Source: a virus. Taken from it: a stretch of 50,746 bases of DNA. This document shows, piece after piece, positions 9,707-49,270 of this stretch (position 1 is its first letter; each line of letters starts with the position of its first letter). The stretch covers positions 1 to 50,746 of the IMG/VR virus record IMGVR_UViG_3300050821_004749; one strand, written 5' to 3'. The translations under genes were made by a program, and so were the position numbers. The notes beneath the pieces are model-generated. The model had not been told where the DNA came from and ran no database searches. It was given only the letters and a program-made list of their open reading frames with translations.

Positions 9707-9889
9707 CTAGCACAACTCCCGAGTCCATGCCTCATTCTGCTCTGCTTCCATTCGACGCCGAAGCTCAAGTAGCTCCGCGTCGTGGCGCACCTTCTCCTCG
9801 CGTACGGCCTGCTCGTAGCGCTCGATGTCCTCAGATTTCTGTGCCGTGCCGTCCTCGGCTAGGAAGTAGGTTTGTCCCTCTGCGTTCAT
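9707..9889 (-). CDS. Small coiled-coil protein
   Basis: 60 residues; from about residue 20 onward a charged helix (Glu/Arg/Lys with Leu/Ala spacing) likely to form a coiled coil. ATGA overlap with the CCA-adding enzyme gene. No known family. Confidence 0.55.
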   Translation of the reverse strand: MNAEGQTYFLAEDGTAQKSEDIERYEQAVREEKVRHDAELLELRRRMEAEQNEAWTRELC

Positions 9890-11547
9890 TGCCCCTCCGG
9901 CTGTGCGTTGATGTACTCTTGGGCTCGCTGTAGCAGCGCTCCGCGCTCATTGAGAGCGGGATCGCCGACTACATCGTTAGTTAGCTGTCGCAGGATTGTA
10001 CCAACTTGCGGCCCAGGTTTCAACCCCATAGCGATGAGGTCGTTTCCGTTGACGCTGATCTGGGATTGACTGGTGGGCACTCCGGCCTGCCGAGACTCCT
10101 CCACGAGGCTGCGCATCCTTTCTACGCCGACGCGCTCCGCGACCTCCTCGTCTGTCTGGCCCTTGCCGGTCATGTCCGCGTGTCGAAGCGTGAGCAGGTC
10201 GTCGGCAGCATCGCCCGCCCTGTTGAGGAAGCGTCGTGCGCCCCTCGGCGATGAGAACGCCGCGAACATATGGGAGTTGATCAGATTGTGGACGTTGCGG
10301 ATTTTCGAGACAGGGTAGTTGAAGGTGTCCCGCAGACGGTTCTCTGCCATGTCAGCGCCTACTCGCGCGTGGTCCGCACCTACCGGATGACCACCAAGCA
10401 TACCGGCGTAGTAATGCGTGACGCCAGTCTCAGGGTCTTCCCATGCAGACGCAGGCTTACCTATATCGTGCAAGAGCGCAGCTAGGCGAAGGTCTGGGTC
10501 TTTGGTATGCTGAGCGATATTGGCCAGCACGTTCAGACTGTGCTCGCCTAGAGTGTAATTATGATGAGGGTTTTTCTGATCGAAATCAAAGTTCGTGGCT
10601 AGCTCGGGGAAGAGATGTTTGAGTACGCCTGTTTCCTGAGCCAAGCGCACGCCGCTCGCTGGATTTGCACTCACCAAAAACTTCTCAAGCTGCTGCTTGA
10701 GCGCGTCCGGTGACTCCTGGTCCAAGCGATGTGCGTGTTCTTCCATCTCCTTGCGCGTCTGCTCGTCCGGGATCAGCCCGTGCCTTGAGTGCATAGTGAG
10801 AGCCCTAACAAGTCGCGTAGGGTCCTCATCGAATGAGTCCGGATGAGTAGTGCGCAGAGCGTGGGCCTCAATATCTCTAGCTCCGCCGTAGGGATCAACC
10901 AGTCTCCCTGAGTCGAGGTCCACGGCCATCGAATTAGCCGTGAAGTCTCGTCTTCGCAAATCTTTCTCAATTGGGAGGTTGTGATCGACGGTGATTTGCC
11001 CTTGTCCACGGGTGCCTCCTGGTTCGTAGGTGTCGGTGCGTGGAAGCGCGATCTCGACTTCCTGCCCTTTCGTGTGATAGCGGTACACGCCAAAGCGCTT
11101 CCCTGTCAAATCGACACGTCCAGGTAGGCGCTCCAAGATGTTATTTACGTCCTCGGGTGGTATGCCAGACACCATCAGGTCGATGTCCTTGGGCTCCTTC
11201 TGGAGCAGTGCATCACGTACAGCGCCGCCCACTACGTAGACCTTGCCTCCGGCTTCTTTGAGCGCCCGAGATGCCGTCCAAGCTGCGCCGTCGGCCGCTG
11301 TGATGGACTTGATGTACGTGCCTACGTCTGCTGACGCTACCTTGTGCTTGTTTCCGCTCTGGTCTTCCATTTCGAGGCTCGTGATCTCTAGTCCTGGATG
11401 GCTATAGTACCACAACTGCATCATGTGGTATGTGGAGAACGGGATAGTGGTCATCGTGTTGATAACCATCTTGCCCTTAGGTTCATAGTATCCCTCCACG
11501 ATTCCTCCCGCCGTAAAATGCTCTGGGCGCTTTCTATACCACGCCAT
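9886..11547 (-). CDS. cca: tRNA nucleotidyltransferase (CCA-adding enzyme) with HD domain
   Basis: 553 residues from ATG 11547 (GGGGGA 6 nt upstream; an upstream ATG 11568 is less likely). Residues about 1-90 are an extra N-terminal domain not typical of the family. Head domain: VYVVGGAVRDALL, KDIDLMVSG (DxD metal ligands), RRRDFTANSMAVD, LVDPYGGARDIE, EDPTRLVRAL. An HD phosphohydrolase domain follows (HNYTLGEHSLNV, AALLHDIGKP). The enzyme adds or repairs the 3' CCA of tRNA without a template. Almost all tRNA genes in this window lack encoded CCA, so it would be needed to mature them unless host enzyme suffices. A poly(A) polymerase activity cannot be excluded from sequence. Confidence 0.93.
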   Translation of the reverse strand: MAWYRKRPEHFTAGGIVEGYYEPKGKMVINTMTTIPFSTYHMMQLWYYSHPGLEITSLEMEDQSGNKHKVASADVGTYIKSITAADGAAWTASRALKEAGGKVYVVGGAVRDALLQKEPKDIDLMVSGIPPEDVNNILERLPGRVDLTGKRFGVYRYHTKGQEVEIALPRTDTYEPGGTRGQGQITVDHNLPIEKDLRRRDFTANSMAVDLDSGRLVDPYGGARDIEAHALRTTHPDSFDEDPTRLVRALTMHSRHGLIPDEQTRKEMEEHAHRLDQESPDALKQQLEKFLVSANPASGVRLAQETGVLKHLFPELATNFDFDQKNPHHNYTLGEHSLNVLANIAQHTKDPDLRLAALLHDIGKPASAWEDPETGVTHYYAGMLGGHPVGADHARVGADMAENRLRDTFNYPVSKIRNVHNLINSHMFAAFSSPRGARRFLNRAGDAADDLLTLRHADMTGKGQTDEEVAERVGVERMRSLVEESRQAGVPTSQSQISVNGNDLIAMGLKPGPQVGTILRQLTNDVVGDPALNERGALLQRAQEYINAQPEGQ

Positions 11548-11983
11548 ATGAATCCCCCAGATATCCAATCGCGGCCATCAAACGAATCGGATCGTCTTGA
11601 AAGTGACCCAATCCGATATTGCAATTGACACACAACAAACCACGTACAAACTTTCCCTCATGGCAGTGATCCACAACCAAGCGCTCGCCAATCGGCTCAT
11701 TCTTGCAAATGGCACATAGACCATTCTGTGCCGCTACACACTCTTCGTATTCCTTGAGGTCCAAGCCATATTTTTCACGCAAACGCCAGTTGAGTTCTTG
11801 TTCTGGAGAGGGTGGACGTAGTTTTCGTTCAAAGCGTTTGTTGCTGTTTACGCAATCACGACATTTGGAATTGCGAGGGAAGTCGGGATGTGCTTCACGA
11901 TATTTCTTTGTCCGCAAAGGAAAGGAGTCTAGTGGCTTGTCCCTGTGACATTGAGTGCAAAGTTTAGTTATTGTGCCAGACAT
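11534..11983 (-). CDS. Recombination endonuclease VII-like HNH nuclease
   Basis: 149 residues from ATG 11983 (GGGAGG 8 nt upstream). Zinc pairs CTQCHRD and CRDC lie near the N-terminus. The core is LCAICKNEP, VVDHCHEGKFVRGLLCVNCN, the signature of the endonuclease VII family (T4 gp49 related), which also includes free-standing homing nucleases. Start and stop overlap both neighbours, consistent with insertion between two virion-region genes. Resolution of branched DNA or homing are both possible; context favours homing. Confidence 0.85.
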   Translation of the reverse strand: MSGTITKLCTQCHRDKPLDSFPLRTKKYREAHPDFPRNSKCRDCVNSNKRFERKLRPPSPEQELNWRLREKYGLDLKEYEECVAAQNGLCAICKNEPIGERLVVDHCHEGKFVRGLLCVNCNIGLGHFQDDPIRLMAAIGYLGDSYGVV

Positions 11984-19768: not shown

Positions 19769-21100
19769 TTATTGGTACTGCTGGTCACGCCACAAGAGCG
19801 TGTCGTTGACGTAAGTTGCGTTCTCGATACGGAAGAACCCATCAGGGTGAACCGTAACAGTTGTGAAGCCCTGCTGCCAGTCAGGTAGTGGCGTGAAGTT
19901 CGGCCACTTGCGTCCCTTGTACGGTGTCTGATCGACTCGGCACATGCAGCCTGCCTCGGCTGCTGTCAGAGTCGTTGTCGCGCCGTCGATGTCGTGCGTT
20001 GTCTTGTAAATGATCGACTGACGATGTGTGTGACCAACGATCACGCTGTATCCCAGGTGTTCGAGCGTAGCCAGTGCTGACGCACCTGATCCCTGACGCG
20101 CGATCCATCCGTGGCGCACAGCCAGCTTGTCGCTGAGATTGATCTGCGCTAGATCATATGCGCCGTCGGGGCTTATGTACTCAATACCTAGCTCGTCCAA
20201 GCGAAGCAAGAATGGTAGTCCTAGAGCGACTGCCCCTGCACTCTCCGGCGAATCAGCTTGCTTTGCTCCATAAAGCGGCTGCATCGACGGCTTGTCGAGC
20301 AGAATGTTACGCAAGCGCTCGTCGTGGTTACCGGCGAGCTTGCGGATGCGAGCCTTCGGCGCTGCCCTACGGATACCGCGTAGCAAGTCGTAACCGCTCT
20401 GAGTACACTCGTTGACCGTAGCTGTGTTCTCCGGGTCCAGACGGTGGCGGCTGATCTCCGGGTAGTCTACAGTGTCACCAAGCAGTGCGATCTCGTCAGG
20501 TTCGTTCTCTTCGAGCCACGCGCATGAGAGATAGTGAAGCTTCTCGTCGTAGAAGGGAGCCTGTTGGTCACCCATGACCACAACGAGTTTGGTCCCCTTG
20601 GTTGAAGCTTTGCTGCGCTCAGGTGCGACCCATCCATCCGAACGTGCAGGAATCAGTTGCAACTCAGGGCGCTTGCGGCGGAGGTTGAGCTTCGCCTGGT
20701 GGTAGGTGACCATGCCCTCTTCGGCGCTCGGTCCATCCCACTCGTTGATCGTCGCGCTCTCGATGATCCACTCCTCTGGATCAAGACCGCGCTCGCGGAG
20801 CATTGCATCCGGATCGTCCATCGGATTCTTCCTGTGAGCGGAAGAGGTAACCTCGCCCTCGTCCCCAGTGATCTTGTAGCCTGCGTGAGCGGCTTTGTTG
20901 TTGACCTCTAGACCGTGACGTTTGCGGAAGCGACGAATCGACTTCTCGGTGGTTTCAAATCGGTGCTTCGATGCCCATAGAGACTTCACCACACCAGCGT
21001 TAGTCTCGCCTTTACCAATCAAGTCTTTGATGAAGCCAGCAATCGGCTCTAGGTCAAGCGGACTTTGGCTTTGCATTTGGTTACTCACTTGAGTCTTCAT
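19769..21100 (-). CDS. Calcineurin-like metallophosphoesterase
   Basis: 443 residues. Residues 1-170 include a helix-turn-helix-like N-terminus (FETTEKSIRRFRKRHG) and a linker. The catalytic domain carries VVVMGDQQAP (GDxH with Gln for His), EIALLGDTVDYPE (GDxxD), LAGNHDERL (GNHD) and VIVGHTHRQS (GHTH). These bind two metals and hydrolyse phosphoesters. Substrate unknown. Starts inside the end of the portal gene, so it is probably co-expressed with it; the HTH hints at DNA association. Confidence 0.85.
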   Translation of the reverse strand: MKTQVSNQMQSQSPLDLEPIAGFIKDLIGKGETNAGVVKSLWASKHRFETTEKSIRRFRKRHGLEVNNKAAHAGYKITGDEGEVTSSAHRKNPMDDPDAMLRERGLDPEEWIIESATINEWDGPSAEEGMVTYHQAKLNLRRKRPELQLIPARSDGWVAPERSKASTKGTKLVVVMGDQQAPFYDEKLHYLSCAWLEENEPDEIALLGDTVDYPEISRHRLDPENTATVNECTQSGYDLLRGIRRAAPKARIRKLAGNHDERLRNILLDKPSMQPLYGAKQADSPESAGAVALGLPFLLRLDELGIEYISPDGAYDLAQINLSDKLAVRHGWIARQGSGASALATLEHLGYSVIVGHTHRQSIIYKTTHDIDGATTTLTAAEAGCMCRVDQTPYKGRKWPNFTPLPDWQQGFTTVTVHPDGFFRIENATYVNDTLLWRDQQYQ

Positions 21101-23624
21101 CCTCGTTCGGTTTCGTTTGCAATGCTAGCGAGTCGATCATCGAATACTTCTTGCCTTCCTCGATTTTGACTTGCTTCTTATTCGGTACCTCTACGATGTA
21201 CTCCTCGCCACTGGCCTTCTTCTTGAGCGTTTGATTGGACTTTAGAACGAACTCCTCTTCCGGCTCTGCCAGTGTAGCAACCTCCTCTATCTCCTGCGCG
21301 GACGCCGCTAGTCTAGCAGCGACTTCATCCGCGACGCGCTGCTGGTAGGTAGAGGCATGCTTGGGCCATTTAGCATAAAGGTCATTGAGCGCTTTGCGCG
21401 AAATTTTCGCCAGGTCCTTGCCCCGGTAGTTGTCCGATAGGTAGTCTACGAAAGGCACGCCAAGGTCTGGATACTCATCCAAGAACTTGTCGATCTGTGA
21501 GCCCTCTGCCACGCTCAGGCGTGACGTGCCATCGTTAGATGTGTTATAGGTCAGGCCAGGGCGACGCTCATTGCTCACCTGTGGTACGCTGCCAGGCGGT
21601 CCAGGCTGCATAGGTGATGCTGGCGGCGGTCCTCCTCCTGGAGGCGCTGTGCCGGGTCCTGAGCCTAGTCCTGGGGGTGCTGGCGGCATGACTATTCCTC
21701 CGCCTCCTGGACCTGCTCCTGGGCCTCCTGGGGGCGGCGGGCCTCCCATCCCTCCCGGAGCCCCGCCAGCGCCCTGTGTAGCCCCCTGTGGGGCTCCTCC
21801 GCCGGAACCTGGACCGTGGAGTAGGACCGACTCACACTCGGCCTTGAGATCGAGCGGAACAGGCAGACCTTTGACGGTGAGCGCGTAGTAAGTCTCCATC
21901 TTCGCCTGTTGCTGCGCGATGGTCTGCTCCTTCAACTCAGTGTTGTACTCGGCGATCTTGTCCTTGTACTTCCAATCCACACCAATGAGCAGATCAGAGT
22001 TCGGAAGCGGTACGCCCATCTGACGTAGCTCCATGAGGAACTGACGCTCGGTCGCCTCGTCGCGCAAGTCGAATGTGGCAAAGGTGAGGTCCGGCACGAG
22101 GAGCTTGGGAACCTCCTTGACGCTCTTGTTACCTTCCTCGTCGTAGACAACAACGCGCTCGAAGATCGGCACGCGCGTCTGGCCCTTTTTTTCGTAGTCC
22201 TGGTGACCCTGCGCCTCGGCGACAATCAGAGCGCGCTCGCGGTAGTGGGCCTTGAGCATGTTCTGGAAGGTCTTGAGGATTTGGTTCATGAACTCGGCCT
22301 GAAGGGCGCTCGAAGCGTAAGGCTGTGAGTTCGAACCTGCGGAGAGGAGAGACGGGTTGACGCCGAACACCTGCATGATGCGACGCTCGATGCGATCGAA
22401 GTCGTCACCAAGACGAGGCATCTGCTCGCGCCCGAAGACAGATGTAATGTCAAGACCAAAGTGGTGAACCATCAAGCGGAAGTCAGACGCGAGTGCGATG
22501 TCGAGATCGTCACGTACTGACTCAAGCTCGGCGGGTGTCGGAATCCACGGAGGGAGTCCCTCGCCCATATCCATGATTCCAAGCTTGGCTAGGATCAACG
22601 GTGAGTACAAGCGCTCGGCGATAGCTTCCTGTGAAGCGAGAAGCTTTTCCTCGTAGAGCAGGGTGCGCAGACCACGGAGCAGGATCGGGGTCCCGTGGTC
22701 GTCCCAGTTGTTCATCTTGTTCGCTACCTGGCGAATCATGACTGGGGAGATCGGGATGTGCTCGCCCTTGAGCAGGTACGGGATGAGGTCGGCGTACTGC
22801 TCCTGGAGCAAGTACCACTCGCGCGCAGGGCTCTTGGTCTGAGCGATGCGGCGCAGATAGTCGGGCGGGACGATCTTCAACTGCTGCGTGTTGAGGAACG
22901 GGAAGTTGTCGATCACCACATCCTCGGGGTTGATCAACTCCTCGTGCTCCCAGACGCCAAGGTCCTCATCAAATGAGCCGAGAGGGAACGCCTCGCCTAC
23001 ACACCAGTACTCGCGCCCCAGCGAGACGAAGAACTCGTCGTAGCTGAGGTTGCGCATGAAAATCTCCTCGTAGATGTCCGTGAGCGCGTGATCCTTACAT
23101 TCGAACTCCATGCCGATCAACGGGAAGCGCGTGAAGATGTCGATCAGCGTCGGAACGAGGTAGTGAGTCGCGTAGTAGAGGCGCAACCACTTGTGAAGCT
23201 TGTGGCGGTGTCCCTCGTCTGCGACGTTCCACGGTAGCCCTGAGAGGTCCCAGTACTCAAGCGGGTCGTAGAAGCGCGGGATCGCGTTCTGTGCATCTGT
23301 GCCGGTAGGACTAATGCTAGCCGACGTGCGCTGCATGCGACGCGATAGAGTGCGTTTCGAGTCCATAGCCTGAATCTTGGCCTGGTTCTCTTTGAGCATC
23401 CGCTGAACCTCTGGCGAATGTAGGTTGTCAGCGGTGACCGCTTTGCCCACGCTGTAGGAGAGATTGTCTAGACTGACGCCAGCGGCCTTGTGAAGGGCGC
23501 GCGTTTGTGTTACTGCCTCACCATACGATTGTGCTGCTCGCCCCGAATGACGAGGCAGAACTAGGCCGTTGTGGCGCAAGCGCGCCAACTCTGCATCCAA
23601 TCGTTGCTGATCGTAGTCCGCCAT
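21081..23624 (-). CDS. Portal protein
   Basis: 847 residues. The first about 580 resemble portal proteins of large actinophages: DIFTRFPLIGMEFE, EYWCVGEAFPLGSF, INPEDVVIDNFPFL and a long stem-helix region (QQLKIVPPDYLRRI). Residues about 600-690 are an extreme Gly/Pro linker, followed by a charged C-terminal domain absent from simple portals. The portal forms the dodecameric ring through which terminase pumps DNA. Position downstream of terminase supports the call. No single catalytic motif exists, so identity rests on overall pattern and context. Confidence 0.8.
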   Translation of the reverse strand: MADYDQQRLDAELARLRHNGLVLPRHSGRAAQSYGEAVTQTRALHKAAGVSLDNLSYSVGKAVTADNLHSPEVQRMLKENQAKIQAMDSKRTLSRRMQRTSASISPTGTDAQNAIPRFYDPLEYWDLSGLPWNVADEGHRHKLHKWLRLYYATHYLVPTLIDIFTRFPLIGMEFECKDHALTDIYEEIFMRNLSYDEFFVSLGREYWCVGEAFPLGSFDEDLGVWEHEELINPEDVVIDNFPFLNTQQLKIVPPDYLRRIAQTKSPAREWYLLQEQYADLIPYLLKGEHIPISPVMIRQVANKMNNWDDHGTPILLRGLRTLLYEEKLLASQEAIAERLYSPLILAKLGIMDMGEGLPPWIPTPAELESVRDDLDIALASDFRLMVHHFGLDITSVFGREQMPRLGDDFDRIERRIMQVFGVNPSLLSAGSNSQPYASSALQAEFMNQILKTFQNMLKAHYRERALIVAEAQGHQDYEKKGQTRVPIFERVVVYDEEGNKSVKEVPKLLVPDLTFATFDLRDEATERQFLMELRQMGVPLPNSDLLIGVDWKYKDKIAEYNTELKEQTIAQQQAKMETYYALTVKGLPVPLDLKAECESVLLHGPGSGGGAPQGATQGAGGAPGGMGGPPPPGGPGAGPGGGGIVMPPAPPGLGSGPGTAPPGGGPPPASPMQPGPPGSVPQVSNERRPGLTYNTSNDGTSRLSVAEGSQIDKFLDEYPDLGVPFVDYLSDNYRGKDLAKISRKALNDLYAKWPKHASTYQQRVADEVAARLAASAQEIEEVATLAEPEEEFVLKSNQTLKKKASGEEYIVEVPNKKQVKIEEGKKYSMIDSLALQTKPNEDEDSSE

Positions 23625-27051: not shown

Positions 27052-29184
27052 CTACCAACGGGCTCGGTTACCTCTGCGACCGCCCCTTGCGCGTCCCAAT
27101 GTGCCTCGGGTTGGTGATTGATATTCCAATTGGGCCTTGCGGAAGTTGTCAAACTCATACTGCTCCAGGTTGGGCGGGGCTCCTCCGGGGCGTAGGGGTG
27201 TGCCGCTAAAGCCAATGCCGTAGCCACCTTCAGCGCCACCCATCAGGACGCTTGTAGAGAGTCGTTCGCGTGTACGGTTAGCGATCTGGTTACCGATCAA
27301 CGTATTGATGCACTCAGCTACGCAGTCCGCCATATCCTTGGTCTGCACAGGTCCGATTTCTTGCCTGTCCACACGCGGGAACTTGCTGGTACCGCCCTGA
27401 ATCTGGAGGAACTTCAACTCCTGCGAGCACCAACGCAAATCCTCCGTGTCGTTGGGAGCGTGGATGAGTTTCGCGTAGATCGATGTCTTGCAGACCTCCC
27501 AGCGGTGCCAGTTGAGTTCAGCCGTAGCGGGCTTGATGTACACGCGCGTTGGGATATTGCGTTCGTTCAGTTTTTCCGTGAGTTCCTGAACCGGCTGGGA
27601 TGACTCGTGCTGATCGAAGGTGATCTCGAATGGGAAGAAGTATTCAGCATATTTCATGACCTCATCAAGGATGGTCGGCCAGCGGATGACTTTGCCGGGG
27701 AATTTCTGTGGTTGCCAGCGCTTGATCAAATCGAAGACGACGTGTTGCTCACTCATGCCCTTCCAGTCGGGGATCATCTCTGTGTGAGCGATAGCAAATC
27801 CGAAGCCAGCGGTGGTGCTTGAGGGATCGAGATGGAACTTGTACCGGAAGAGGTTGGTGGCCTCCTTACCCGTGTTGGTGCGGAAGGGCTTTAGTGCGAG
27901 TCGCGGAACGTCGGGGTTATCAGACCCTTGATCGAAGACCCATTCATCTGGGAGCCCTGCGAACATTTCATCAATGCGTCGCGGTTCCATATAAGCGTCC
28001 ATGACCTCGGCGAATTTGCCACGATACTCGACCTTGAATCCCTCAGGGTTGGCCTGCTCTTCTGCTCGCGCTGTGCGAATAAGCTGCTTGTCTTTAGCGG
28101 TCCATAGGTCGTTGCCCTCCTCGTCTTTCTCGTCTGGGTTCCATTCTGGAGATGCCATGAGGACACCTTTTAGTTTGGCTCGGTTTTTGGCTTTCTGGTA
28201 ACCCTCGTAGAGCCCCCACGAGGGGAACTGGATGACCATGAGTCGAGGTTCACCGTTGCGGTCCCTCAAGTCAAACCCATCATCTAGGAGAGGCGCAGGC
28301 TCGTCCACAGGGCGTGTGGGATCGAACTCGATCATGCCCTCGACGTACTTTTCGTAGAAGAGCCCGATCTTCGTGTAAGGTGAACTGTTGAGGAAAGCTA
28401 GACCGTCAACGCCGAACTGACCAAGCGACGGGTTCGCAGCTTCATAAATCTTGTTGGGCGACGACTTAGACTCGCCGGGGAGCATGAACGCGATCTCGTC
28501 AATGCAGTATGCCATCATGGCGAGTCCACGGATGGTACCTGCGTTCGCTGCCATAGCGTTGCCCCGTAGTCGAGCGATGTCTTTCTGGATGCGGTTGCCT
28601 CGGTTTTTCTCCTGAGCGATACGGCGTAGGTCTGCGTTGGTAGCTACGCGAATCTCCGTCTCCAGGGACTTGACGAGGTAAGGGTCGAAGACCTTGCATG
28701 TCTCGACGGTGGACGAGAAGTCGGCGTACTGACGGCCCTGAGCCTGTTCCTGCGAACCGGCGATACACGAGAAGTAAATCTCCTTCTCAGGGTCGATGCC
28801 GTAGTGCGCGCCGGGGTCCTGCAACTGTAGGGTGGACCACATGACCTTAGCCATCGCCACGCCCGTGCAGAATCCCTTGGAGCTACGACGACCACCCACT
28901 AGGGCGATCTCGCGGAAGTGGGGGTATCCTGCCTCGCGGAGCCATTCGACGCGCTCGCGGATGTTGGGGGAGATCACGAAGTCGGTACCGTTGCTACCGC
29001 CGTTGATCCAGTAGGTGAGAATGTCCTCCTCCTCGCCCGTAAGCTCCTCCAGAAAGATCGTCTTGAGCAGTACCCGTTGCCCTGGATAGAGGTTACGGTT
29101 ACAGTACTCGGAGGATTCAGTGAACTCCTCGATGCCCACATTCTTGGGGGCAAGCTGATTTAGCGCTTGCGCAAGTAAGTCCAT
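27052..29184 (-). CDS. terL: Terminase large subunit
   Basis: 710 residues. ATPase: Walker A-like GGRRSSKGF at about residues 97-105 and Walker B MAYCIDEIAF. C-terminal RNase H-like nuclease: FHLDPSSTTAGFGFA (first Asp), EITFDQHES (second acidic), and KDMADCVAECINTLI (third Asp). The protein packages DNA into the prohead by ATP hydrolysis and cuts genome ends. AAGGG lies 8 nt before ATG. Basic Gly/Arg tail (RARGGRRGNRARW) is unusual and may bind DNA. Confidence 0.93.
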   Translation of the reverse strand: MDLLAQALNQLAPKNVGIEEFTESSEYCNRNLYPGQRVLLKTIFLEELTGEEEDILTYWINGGSNGTDFVISPNIRERVEWLREAGYPHFREIALVGGRRSSKGFCTGVAMAKVMWSTLQLQDPGAHYGIDPEKEIYFSCIAGSQEQAQGRQYADFSSTVETCKVFDPYLVKSLETEIRVATNADLRRIAQEKNRGNRIQKDIARLRGNAMAANAGTIRGLAMMAYCIDEIAFMLPGESKSSPNKIYEAANPSLGQFGVDGLAFLNSSPYTKIGLFYEKYVEGMIEFDPTRPVDEPAPLLDDGFDLRDRNGEPRLMVIQFPSWGLYEGYQKAKNRAKLKGVLMASPEWNPDEKDEEGNDLWTAKDKQLIRTARAEEQANPEGFKVEYRGKFAEVMDAYMEPRRIDEMFAGLPDEWVFDQGSDNPDVPRLALKPFRTNTGKEATNLFRYKFHLDPSSTTAGFGFAIAHTEMIPDWKGMSEQHVVFDLIKRWQPQKFPGKVIRWPTILDEVMKYAEYFFPFEITFDQHESSQPVQELTEKLNERNIPTRVYIKPATAELNWHRWEVCKTSIYAKLIHAPNDTEDLRWCSQELKFLQIQGGTSKFPRVDRQEIGPVQTKDMADCVAECINTLIGNQIANRTRERLSTSVLMGGAEGGYGIGFSGTPLRPGGAPPNLEQYEFDNFRKAQLEYQSPTRGTLGRARGGRRGNRARW

Positions 29185-35875: not shown

Positions 35876-36364
35876 TTACAACTGGCCCTTTCGGGCGAAA
35901 GGCTCCTTCTCGGCCGCGTTGAGCCGTCTCCTGCGCTTGATCGCGTATGGCCCGTGGTGACGGGTCAACAACGCCTGCAAGTCGCTCAGAGAGGGTATTA
36001 CGGTCTTCTCCTTGTACAGCTTGAACTCGCCAAACGTGGCAGCCGTATGAGGGTCGTCACGATCGACTACTGCGACGCCTAGCGCCGTCATCGACAGCGG
36101 GCGAATCTCTGTCCGACCCTCGTCAATGATGAGCTTGGTCTTGAAGCCTCGCTCCTCAATGTACTTCTGGATCGTGAGAAGATGAACGTCGTCGTCGGCG
36201 ACCATCACGAGCTTGCAGTAGTGGCCTCCCAGATACCAAGCATCCAACAGGTCTTGGTCGCTGATGCGGAAAGCCTCCACGGCTGCGTGCTGCGCCTGAG
36301 CGGCGATCTTACCGGGCGTCATTCCAAGACCCCGGTTCACAAAGCTATACATAGCAGGCCGCAT
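35876..36364 (-). CDS. Peptidyl-tRNA hydrolase, PTH2 family
   Basis: 162 residues. MYSFVNRGLGMTPGKIAAQ then HAAVEAF matches the PTH2 signature (GMxxGKxAAQxxHA, with catalytic Lys and His). DEGRTEIRPLSMTALGV matches the family's DAGRTQIAPGSxTVLGI (catalytic Asp and Thr). The enzyme frees tRNA from peptidyl-tRNA dropped by stalled ribosomes. PTH2 is the archaeal/eukaryotic type; most bacteria use the unrelated Pth. Lies inside the tRNA array, right after tRNA-Thr; ATG 36364 is 7 nt after TATACT (36377-36372). Residues after about 120 are a basic extension. Confidence 0.88.
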   Translation of the reverse strand: MRPAMYSFVNRGLGMTPGKIAAQAQHAAVEAFRISDQDLLDAWYLGGHYCKLVMVADDDVHLLTIQKYIEERGFKTKLIIDEGRTEIRPLSMTALGVAVVDRDDPHTAATFGEFKLYKEKTVIPSLSDLQALLTRHHGPYAIKRRRRLNAAEKEPFARKGQL

Positions 36365-36377: not shown

Positions 36378-36386
36378 GCACAAAAG

Positions 36387-36460
36387 AGCCCACTCTCGGA
36401 ATCGAACCGAGTCTATTCTCGCTTACAAGGCGAGCGCAGCACCATTTCTGCATAGCAGGC
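36387..36460 (-). tRNA. tRNA-Thr(UGU)
   Basis: 74 nt. Anticodon stem CTCGC/GCGAG, loop CTTGTAA; acceptor GCCTGCT/AGTGGGC; base 73 T; no CCA. Its 5' end lies 4 nt after the 3' P1 strand of the RNase P RNA. Confidence 0.92.
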
Positions 36461-36464
36461 ACTA

Positions 36465-36795
36465 TGTAGTCGATAAGCCGGATTCTGTCGTTGGACGATC
36501 ATCTTTCTCACGCTTGCGCGTGGCGTCTAGGGTGTTACCCCTACGCTGCCCCCAACCCGCTATGACCATAGGCTAGCCCTTAGGTTTCGCTTCTTGAGGT
36601 TGCATCCTCACCAGCCGTGCTCGGTTCGAGCGCCCGTACTACTATCGACGCCGCTCTCGCAGAATCGATCTCAACAAGGCTCCCGCCACACGTCGATTGT
36701 CTATGCCTCCTGGTTACGGAAGCGATCGAGTTTCCCCGACCAGGATGTCCGGACTTTCCTCTGTGGGATCGGACCACAGCGACCGTCTGACTACA
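36465..36795 (-). ncRNA. rnpB: RNase P RNA
   Basis: About 331 nt. Seen: P1 TGTAGTC (36795-36789) with GACTACA (36471-36465); P2 GACGGTC (787-781) with GATCGTC (500-494); P3 hairpin CTGTGG/CCACAG (779-761); CR-I GAGGAAAGTCCGG (761-749); and CR-V AGAATCCGGCTTAT (486-473). CR-I and CR-V pair as helix P4 (AAG/CTT, bulged T, CCGGA/TCCGG). Relative to the usual CCGGG/CCCGG this is a compensatory change that keeps the helix and the catalytic bulged U. The 3' context CCAACGACAGAATCCGG mirrors E. coli. The central specificity region is shorter than usual (about 350-400 nt for the family) and I could not align it. RNase P removes 5' leaders of pre-tRNA; the protein subunit is not seen in this window. 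Confidence 0.93.
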
Positions 36796-36796
36796 G

Positions 36797-36867
36797 AGCG
36801 ACATGCGGGAGTTGAACCCGCGCATCCTGCATGGCAAGCAGGTAGGCTACCACTACATCAATGTCGC
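36797..36867 (-). tRNA. tRNA-Gly(GCC)
   Basis: 71 nt. Anticodon stem CCTGC/GCAGG, loop TTGCCAT; acceptor GCGACAT/ATGTCGC; base 73 T; no CCA. Its 3' end is 1 nt from the start of the RNase P RNA. Confidence 0.93.
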
Positions 36868-42599: not shown

Positions 42600-42639
42600 T
42601 TGACTCTCCTTGGTTGCATTGCTCTCTACTATAGCACAG

Positions 42640-43021
42640 TGGACCCCGAGGGAATCGAACCCTCGTCTCCGATGTACGTAAAGCGTCACTATTCAGCAGC
42701 TTAGGTCCGTCAGAGAGGACCAATCTCATGGGACAGGCTTCCGCCCGTCTCCACCACTCGGTTTACGTCCGAGAACGTGCTACTCGCGGGGTGCTACCAT
42801 CGCACTTTCTGTTCACAGGTAGTGCGTACCCGGCTAAGGCTATTTAGGCCAGAGCGAGATGAAGCTCGCGTGCCCCAACTCCCGGAAGAGAATGACCTTC
42901 CTGGAAGCTCGCGGGGATAGCGAGAGTGTCATCGGTGCCAATTATGGCTTGTGGCAGGTAGGTGTGCCGACCGCTGCGTAACTAACTCTCGAATCTCACC
43001 AGATCGAAGCCTGTGAGGCCC
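42640..43021 (-). ncRNA. ssrA: tmRNA
   Basis: 382 nt. The ends form one tRNA-like half: acceptor GGGCCTC (43021-43015) pairs with GGGGTCC (42647-42641), with two G-U pairs. T-arm GAGGG-TTCGATT-CCCTC; base 73 A; no CCA. The 5' end carries GGCTTCGAT, the conserved GGnTTCGA of tmRNA. The 3' domain CTAAGCTG... resembles bacterial tmRNA 3' parts. No tRNA anticodon arm joins the halves. A likely tag frame at 42873-42844 reads ARELHLALA-stop. With SmpB, tmRNA frees stalled ribosomes and tags the product for proteolysis; SmpB is not seen here. Confidence 0.85.
42844..42873 (-). other. Candidate tmRNA tag-peptide frame
   Basis: GCA resume codon, then CGC GAG CTT CAT CTC GCT CTG GCC TAA: peptide ARELHLALA. 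A hydrophobic Leu-Ala end is typical of protease-directed tags. It begins at nt 149 of the RNA, later than the usual 80-95, so the assignment is tentative. Confidence 0.55.
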
Positions 43022-48384: not shown

Positions 48385-48551
48385 GGGTGCTCTTCAAAAG
48401 ATTTCTTGGCAGCCAGATCGTAGCCCGCCTCGTAAGCCTTGCGCGCCCCTGCCGTGAACCGATCGCCTACGTTGGCATCGCCGCGCTCGCCGTCTTCATA
48501 GCCGTACCTGTAGAGGGTCGGCCACTGCTTGAATTTGGCCGGGACTTTCAT
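48381..48551 (-). CDS. Small protein coupled to the RNA ligase gene (56 aa)
   Basis: MKVPAKFKQWPTLYRYGYED, then FTAGARKAYEAGYDLAAKK. Repeated G-x-x-A/R-Y-E patterns; basic. ATG overlaps the ligase TGA (ATGA). No known family. Confidence 0.6.
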   Translation of the reverse strand: MKVPAKFKQWPTLYRYGYEDGERGDANVGDRFTAGARKAYEAGYDLAAKKSFEEHP

Positions 48552-49270
48552 GCTCCCTGCTCCTTGCCCTTGTCGTCGTCCTTGATCGTCGTCTTGAAGA
48601 GTGAGTTGCTGTGCTTGTGGTAGGTGACGATACCCTCGGGGTCCATGAACCCAGGTGCAGCCATTGATCCTTCCTCGGCGAGGTCCGCGACCGTCGCGCG
48701 GATGGCATCCGTATCGAACTCCTCGAATTCAGCGAGCACCGGAACGACATGGCAGCACGGAGGACGATCGGTCGTGTTGATGATCTCCCCGAAGCCATTC
48801 ATATCCTCTTCATCGCGCCAGCGGTTGACGTTGAAGAGACTAAAGCGCTTCTCGTCCAGTCCGTATTTGCGCTGGATGCCAGAGCCCCACCACTCTCCGA
48901 AGTGTACGCCCTCACCCAGGTAGCGAGCTAGCTCATGGGCGTTCTCGCGTACCCATCCAGCGAAGCCAAAGTTGTCATTCTCAGGAGAGATGACTCGCTT
49001 ACGTGACTGAGCGTACACATACCTTGGGAAGAACCCGTCCATGCGTCGCCCATCGGTATTGACGACGATACCTGGACCTACCACCTGGCCGTTCTCATAG
49101 ATGTACGGCTCGACCGGACTCACCACTACGGCCGCGTTCGTGCCGTCGATCTTCTCCGTGATAATGATCGGACGGAACAAGCGACTGATCTTGGGGAACC
49201 CTGTAAAGGTTGCCTCCGGTGTGAATGAATCCTCCGGAACGCGCACCGGAAAGTCTACGTCAACTCCCAT
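48548..49270 (-). CDS. RNA ligase (Rnl2/DRB0094-like)
   Basis: 240 residues. Nucleotidyltransferase motifs in order: I, EKIDGTN with Lys40 as the AMP acceptor; a conserved Ser-Arg (QSRKR); III, HFGEWWGSG; IIIa, RFSLFNV; IV, DPEGIVTYHK; V, LFKTTIK. The enzyme joins a 3'-OH to a 5'-phosphate in RNA, using ATP. With the kinase at 16570 it could repair tRNA cut by host anticodon nucleases. Start overlaps the upstream gene's end by 11 nt. Confidence 0.9.
   Translation of the reverse strand: MGVDVDFPVRVPEDSFTPEATFTGFPKISRLFRPIIITEKIDGTNAAVVVSPVEPYIYENGQVVGPGIVVNTDGRRMDGFFPRYVYAQSRKRVISPENDNFGFAGWVRENAHELARYLGEGVHFGEWWGSGIQRKYGLDEKRFSLFNVNRWRDEEDMNGFGEIINTTDRPPCCHVVPVLAEFEEFDTDAIRATVADLAEEGSMAAPGFMDPEGIVTYHKHSNSLFKTTIKDDDKGKEQGA

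Follow-up and report, generated by a model that had tools for sequence, protein, structure and literature searches.

A virus contig of 50,746 bases, here called the window and analysed over its whole length, carries on its minus strand an RNA element (36465–36795, P1 to P1′) that is a homologue of bacterial RNase P RNA. It sits directly between two genes of a phage tRNA array, tRNA-Gly(GCC) and tRNA-Thr(UGU). Few ribozymes are considered standard cellular genes; RNase P RNA is among them. The literature searched, which included papers on phages and RNase P but was covered incompletely and with few preprints, gave no earlier account of an RNase P RNA in a phage, and a phage-borne copy is likely new to the literature. 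We propose that the RNA is probably functional, being part of a tRNA-maturation kit and borrowing the host protein RnpA to mature phage tRNAs.

The RNA and its setting

The covariance model RF00010 matched window positions 36458–36798 (minus strand) over model positions 1–367, with 63.4 bits and an E-value of 7.2e-19 in an 801-base scan, and with an E-value of 1.1e-20 when the whole 50,746-base record was scanned. The claim of the original prediction that a phage genome holds an RNase P RNA is thus upheld as to homology: the full-model match on the minus strand is significant, and P1, P2, P3, CR-I and CR-V were all found where it had placed them. The score nevertheless stays below the Rfam gathering score of 100 for RF00010, because the specificity domain fails to align.

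On the minus strand, P1 is formed by 36795–36789 pairing with 36471–36465, P2 by 36787–36781 with 36500–36494, and P3 by 36779–36774 with 36766–36761. CR-I (GAGGAAAGTCCGG, 36749–36761) and CR-V (ACAGAATCCGGCTTA, 36474–36488) were located in the sequence; J18/2 (AGAAAGATG, 36500–36508) agrees with AGAnnnAUG at six of six positions in a motif scan, and the 3′ side of L15 with its GGU, together with the 3′ strand of P15, lies at 36549–36560. Along with P5, all these elements are intact. The folding z-score of the RNA against dinucleotide shuffles is −2.6. Taken with the E-values, and with the finding that pairs at four related viral loci change in a compensatory way and never break (see below), it indicates that the match is more than chance. 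A change in P4 relative to the commoner G-C pair had also been noticed, and the A-U pair (CCGGAC/AATCCGG) is indeed present; as a special feature it was rejected, since the exact pattern carrying it matches at least 115 bacterial genome stretches.

The surrounding contig is that of a phage, with a portal protein (21081–23624; phrog_2833, E = 1.5e-156), a terminase large subunit (27052–29184; phrog_2, E = 5.9e-10), a tail fibre and tail genes. The portal and terminase genes lie on the minus strand, as do the tRNA genes and the three RNA-related genes described next. ARAGORN finds 39 tRNA genes between 34312 and 48203; among them tRNA-Gly(GCC) (36796–36867) is directly upstream of P1, and tRNA-Thr(UGU) (36386–36460) starts 4 nt past P1′. 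Three further genes concern RNA metabolism: a CCA-adding tRNA nucleotidyltransferase (9886–11568; phrog_2244, E = 1.4e-63; PF01743), a PTH2 peptidyl-tRNA hydrolase (35876–36364; PF01981, E = 5e-18) and an RNA ligase (48548–49270; PF09414, E = 4.2e-12). None of the 39 tRNA genes encodes CCA, in agreement with the presence of the CCA-adding enzyme. Since the portal shares about 40% identity with its counterparts in phages of Rhodococcus and Gordonia and in cluster C mycobacteriophages, we infer that the host is likely actinobacterial.

Two side observations concern the array. A tmRNA at 42639–43021, scoring 35.3 bits with RF00023 and hence below the Rfam cut-off, has an unusually long tag of 31 residues ending in LALA. 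In most tRNA genes of the window, of G003 (L199–L207) and of contig L029, the acceptor stem is followed by N-C-U in place of CCA; U75 occurs in 28 of 39 genes in the window, 30 of 37 in G003 and 17 of 25 in L029, and in 6 of 29 in phage Alice. Conserved C74 was considered as a co-adaptation to the phage RNase P and rejected, because 27 of the 29 genes of Alice, a phage without the RNA, have it as well.

Related loci and the viral distribution

Three further viral contigs, L004 (170 kb), L218 (84 kb) and L223 (168 kb), carry an RNase P RNA before the same tRNA-Thr(UGU), and in each of the four members P1′ stops 4–7 nt short of this tRNA. In the window and L218, tRNA-Gly abuts the RNA at its 5′ end; in L004 the RNA is flanked by the same pair of tRNAs, and additional DNA with an HNH gene lies on its tRNA-Gly side. 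The portal, CCA enzyme, PTH2 and RNA ligase of L004 are 89, 85, 78 and 70% identical to those of the window, and L004 was the only relative found by a PTH2 scan of viral contigs.

Across the four loci we compared 32 pairs in P1, P2, P3, P5 and P8, leaving out the P8 of L218: 15 varied on both sides, 4 on one side, 13 were invariant and none was broken, a count that leans towards structure since the alignment was made by hand from sequences already taken as homologous. Chiefly on account of these two-sided changes without any broken pair, the fold is taken to be under selection in this family.

The specificity domain (36608–36742), enclosed by the P5 strands and about 135 nt long, contrasts with the catalytic core. 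It had been described as short and unaligned; it is indeed unalignable to RF00010, but it is not short. It contains a P8-like GAAA hairpin (36741–36724) and a stretch, GGCGGGAG, common to the window, L004 and L223. The canonical J11/12 and J12/11 motifs were not found in the window by a simple motif scan, which is not a structural test; the best score for each was 6 of 8 in the window and L004, against 7–8 of 8 in most higher-scoring RNAs. That these motifs are missing is only suggestive of altered substrate choice. A further-reaching proposal is that such RNAs form a class of RNase P RNA specific to viruses, in which a rebuilt specificity domain would provide a new mode of recognising phage pre-tRNAs and the RNA would free itself from the tRNA transcript; this proposal is tentative and in our judgement doubtful.

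Exact-pattern scans of IMG/VR, followed by RF00010 on the records, gave about 26 viral contigs besides the window with matching RNAs in or near tRNA genes, a count that includes L004, L218, L223 and a few near-duplicates (e.g., L010/L021 and L035/L042). They belong to several lineages, and their scores range from a weak 21.6 bits (L031) to 280. The RNAs form several groups between which the sequence varies greatly. In one (L219, L220 and L222), a gap of exactly 1 nt separates most neighbouring tRNA genes, and the RNase P RNA among them is very divergent (50–60 bits); in some others the next tRNA is 60–650 nt away or none is close, and L011, L026 and L030 (202–497 kb) have the RNA without a tRNA close by. 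In groups B, C and D, respectively 15, 24 and 9 predicted consensus pairs changed on both sides, and 22, 5 and 5 were broken in some member. The window, L004, L032 and L037 have a portal of the family phrog_2833 in common, yet L032 and L037 have RNase P RNAs very unlike that of the window, which points to repeated capture or fast change.

About 20 further viral contigs with an RNase P RNA were left out of the count since, judged collectively by score, contig end and neighbours, they look like prophage edges or bacterial DNA. Eight contigs (L012, L013, L018–L020 and L022–L024) have RNAs of near-identical score (331–334 bits) at one contig end, in two cases with tRNA-Met beside the RNA; these are probably prophages or islands inserted near the host rnpB.

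The original prediction knew of no well-studied phage with an RNase P RNA. This holds for those searched with RF00010: none was found in 17 isolated phages (ten cluster-C-like phages with complete genomes and seven others, most of them jumbo) or in the enrichment-culture virus Rctr197k, one of the two isolate searches having stricter filters that could lose weak matches. Weak matches in Stormageddon (7 bits), in or beside ssb, were taken as chance. Blastn against GenBank phages matched six records: two UNVERIFIED metagenome scaffolds without annotation, two Acinetobacter MD-2021a contigs, Microcystis phage MaAM05, and a Salmonella contig whose annotation gives a bacterial RNase P RNA. Of the Acinetobacter contigs, the one inspected represents a prophage flank that carries tRNA-Met, and the MaAM05 match is surrounded by bacterial housekeeping genes; both were rejected as phage-borne, and a match in a Tsukamurella ‘plasmid’ has chromosome-like neighbours. 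The MaAM05 record MW495066.1 (L049, L217) holds acnA, rpoD, rny, fliM, fabI, glyS and the RNase P RNA-like stretch, has no phrog_2 terminase match, and may be bacterial DNA. Its locus tags match those cited for PhiMa05 (PMC13157829), and if it is bacterial, this bears on the claim of phage ribosomal proteins made in that paper.

A possible role in phage tRNA maturation

A search for RnpA (PF00825) was negative in all 44 virus records and positive in the control genomes; as most of the 44 are fragments, the gene may be encoded elsewhere in those genomes. Presumably the RNA relies on host RnpA or acts alone, and a hybrid enzyme with the host protein, as had been suggested, fits this absence. We envisage that the RNA is transcribed inside the tRNA array, that 3′ processing of tRNA-Gly would set its 5′ end, and that its 3′ end would be generated by RNase P as it cuts at the start of tRNA-Thr, in an act of self-release; its placement as the leader of tRNA-Thr is why RNase P presumably makes that end. 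The freed RNA would join the host RnpA in a hybrid holoenzyme removing 5′ leaders from phage pre-tRNAs, its putative substrates, and the phage CCA-adding enzyme would then complete the tRNA 3′ ends.

The basis for this role is homology, location, a conserved catalytic fold and the absence of RnpA from the examined records. Thus, a full-length model match with intact catalytic elements is joined by 15 two-sided, 4 one-sided and no disruptive pair changes; by the placement just before tRNA-Thr in four of four loci and the tRNA-rich setting in the other contigs; and by a CCA enzyme, PTH2 and RNA ligase on a contig whose tRNA genes lack CCA. Against it stand the score below the gathering cut-off, the absent specificity-domain motifs, and the 17 isolated phages that do without the RNA, some of them rich in tRNAs.

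The close spacing to tRNA-Thr in all four members, as well as the missing RnpA, would also suit a cis-acting ribozyme that cuts itself from this tRNA without protein and has little activity in trans. We consider this quite unlikely, as the adjacency is not general among the other groups and the 38 other tRNAs of the array also need processing. A phage RNA with a retained catalytic domain, a changed specificity domain and no RnpA of its own might instead be a decoy that occupies the host RnpA and thereby inhibits host RNase P; this, too, is improbable, given that the RNA retains the elements on which catalysis and CCA binding depend (CR-I, CR-V, J18/2 and the L15 GGU) and that the tRNA-array setting points to processing.

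A captured host gene hitchhiking in the array without function would account for the low model score and the great variation between groups, but hardly for the two-sided compensatory changes with no broken pair or for recurrence in several lineages, and we hold it to be very unlikely. Least credible is bacterial contamination or a chimeric assembly, despite the some 20 excluded contigs that resemble prophage edges or bacterial DNA: the window RNA is embedded between phage tRNAs on a contig that also encodes a phage portal, terminase and tail, three other contigs show the arrangement again, and none of the bacterial sequences compared is close outside the conserved regions. Its assignment to a phage therefore stands.

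Comparison with known systems

RNase P RNA in phages of several lineages, with a rebuilt specificity domain, widens the set of translation components that viruses are seen to appropriate. It also provides natural variants with which to ask which elements of RNase P determine the choice of substrate, and the arrangement suggests how a ribozyme could be matured from a tRNA transcript by its own activity.

Bacterial type A RNase P RNA (rnpB; RF00010) has P1–P5, P15 with the L15 GGU, CR-I, CR-V and J18/2 in common with the window RNA, which differs in being phage-borne, inside a tRNA array, below the family cut-off and, as far as detected, without a canonical J11/12 or J12/11 motif. The nearest precedent comes from Mycobacterium austroafricanum and M. 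sp. YC-RL4, whose genomes hold additional RNase P RNAs that the authors suspect of having been horizontally transferred (PMC9569102). By their description, these RNAs are alike in keeping the conserved residues while differing in the specificity domain, and an endonuclease gene adjoins them; unlike the window RNA, they are in bacterial genomes and were not assigned to phage.

Among phages, theta ribozymes of gut phages are likewise tied to tRNA genes, and 20.6% of such genomes have a CCA-adding enzyme (PMC10879173), but they are HDV-like, self-cleaving and unrelated to the window RNase P RNA. Huge phages carry tRNAs, CCA-adding enzymes, tmRNA and other translation parts, the main text of that report making no mention of RNase P (PMC7162821). 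Finally, the cluster C mycobacteriophages and their relatives (Ceeclamvirinae, Rhodococcus phages Finch and E3, Gordonia phage Skog and others), whose portals are the homologues of about 40% identity, include Alice with a large tRNA set as in the window; unlike the window, the ten complete genomes tested yielded no RNase P RNA.
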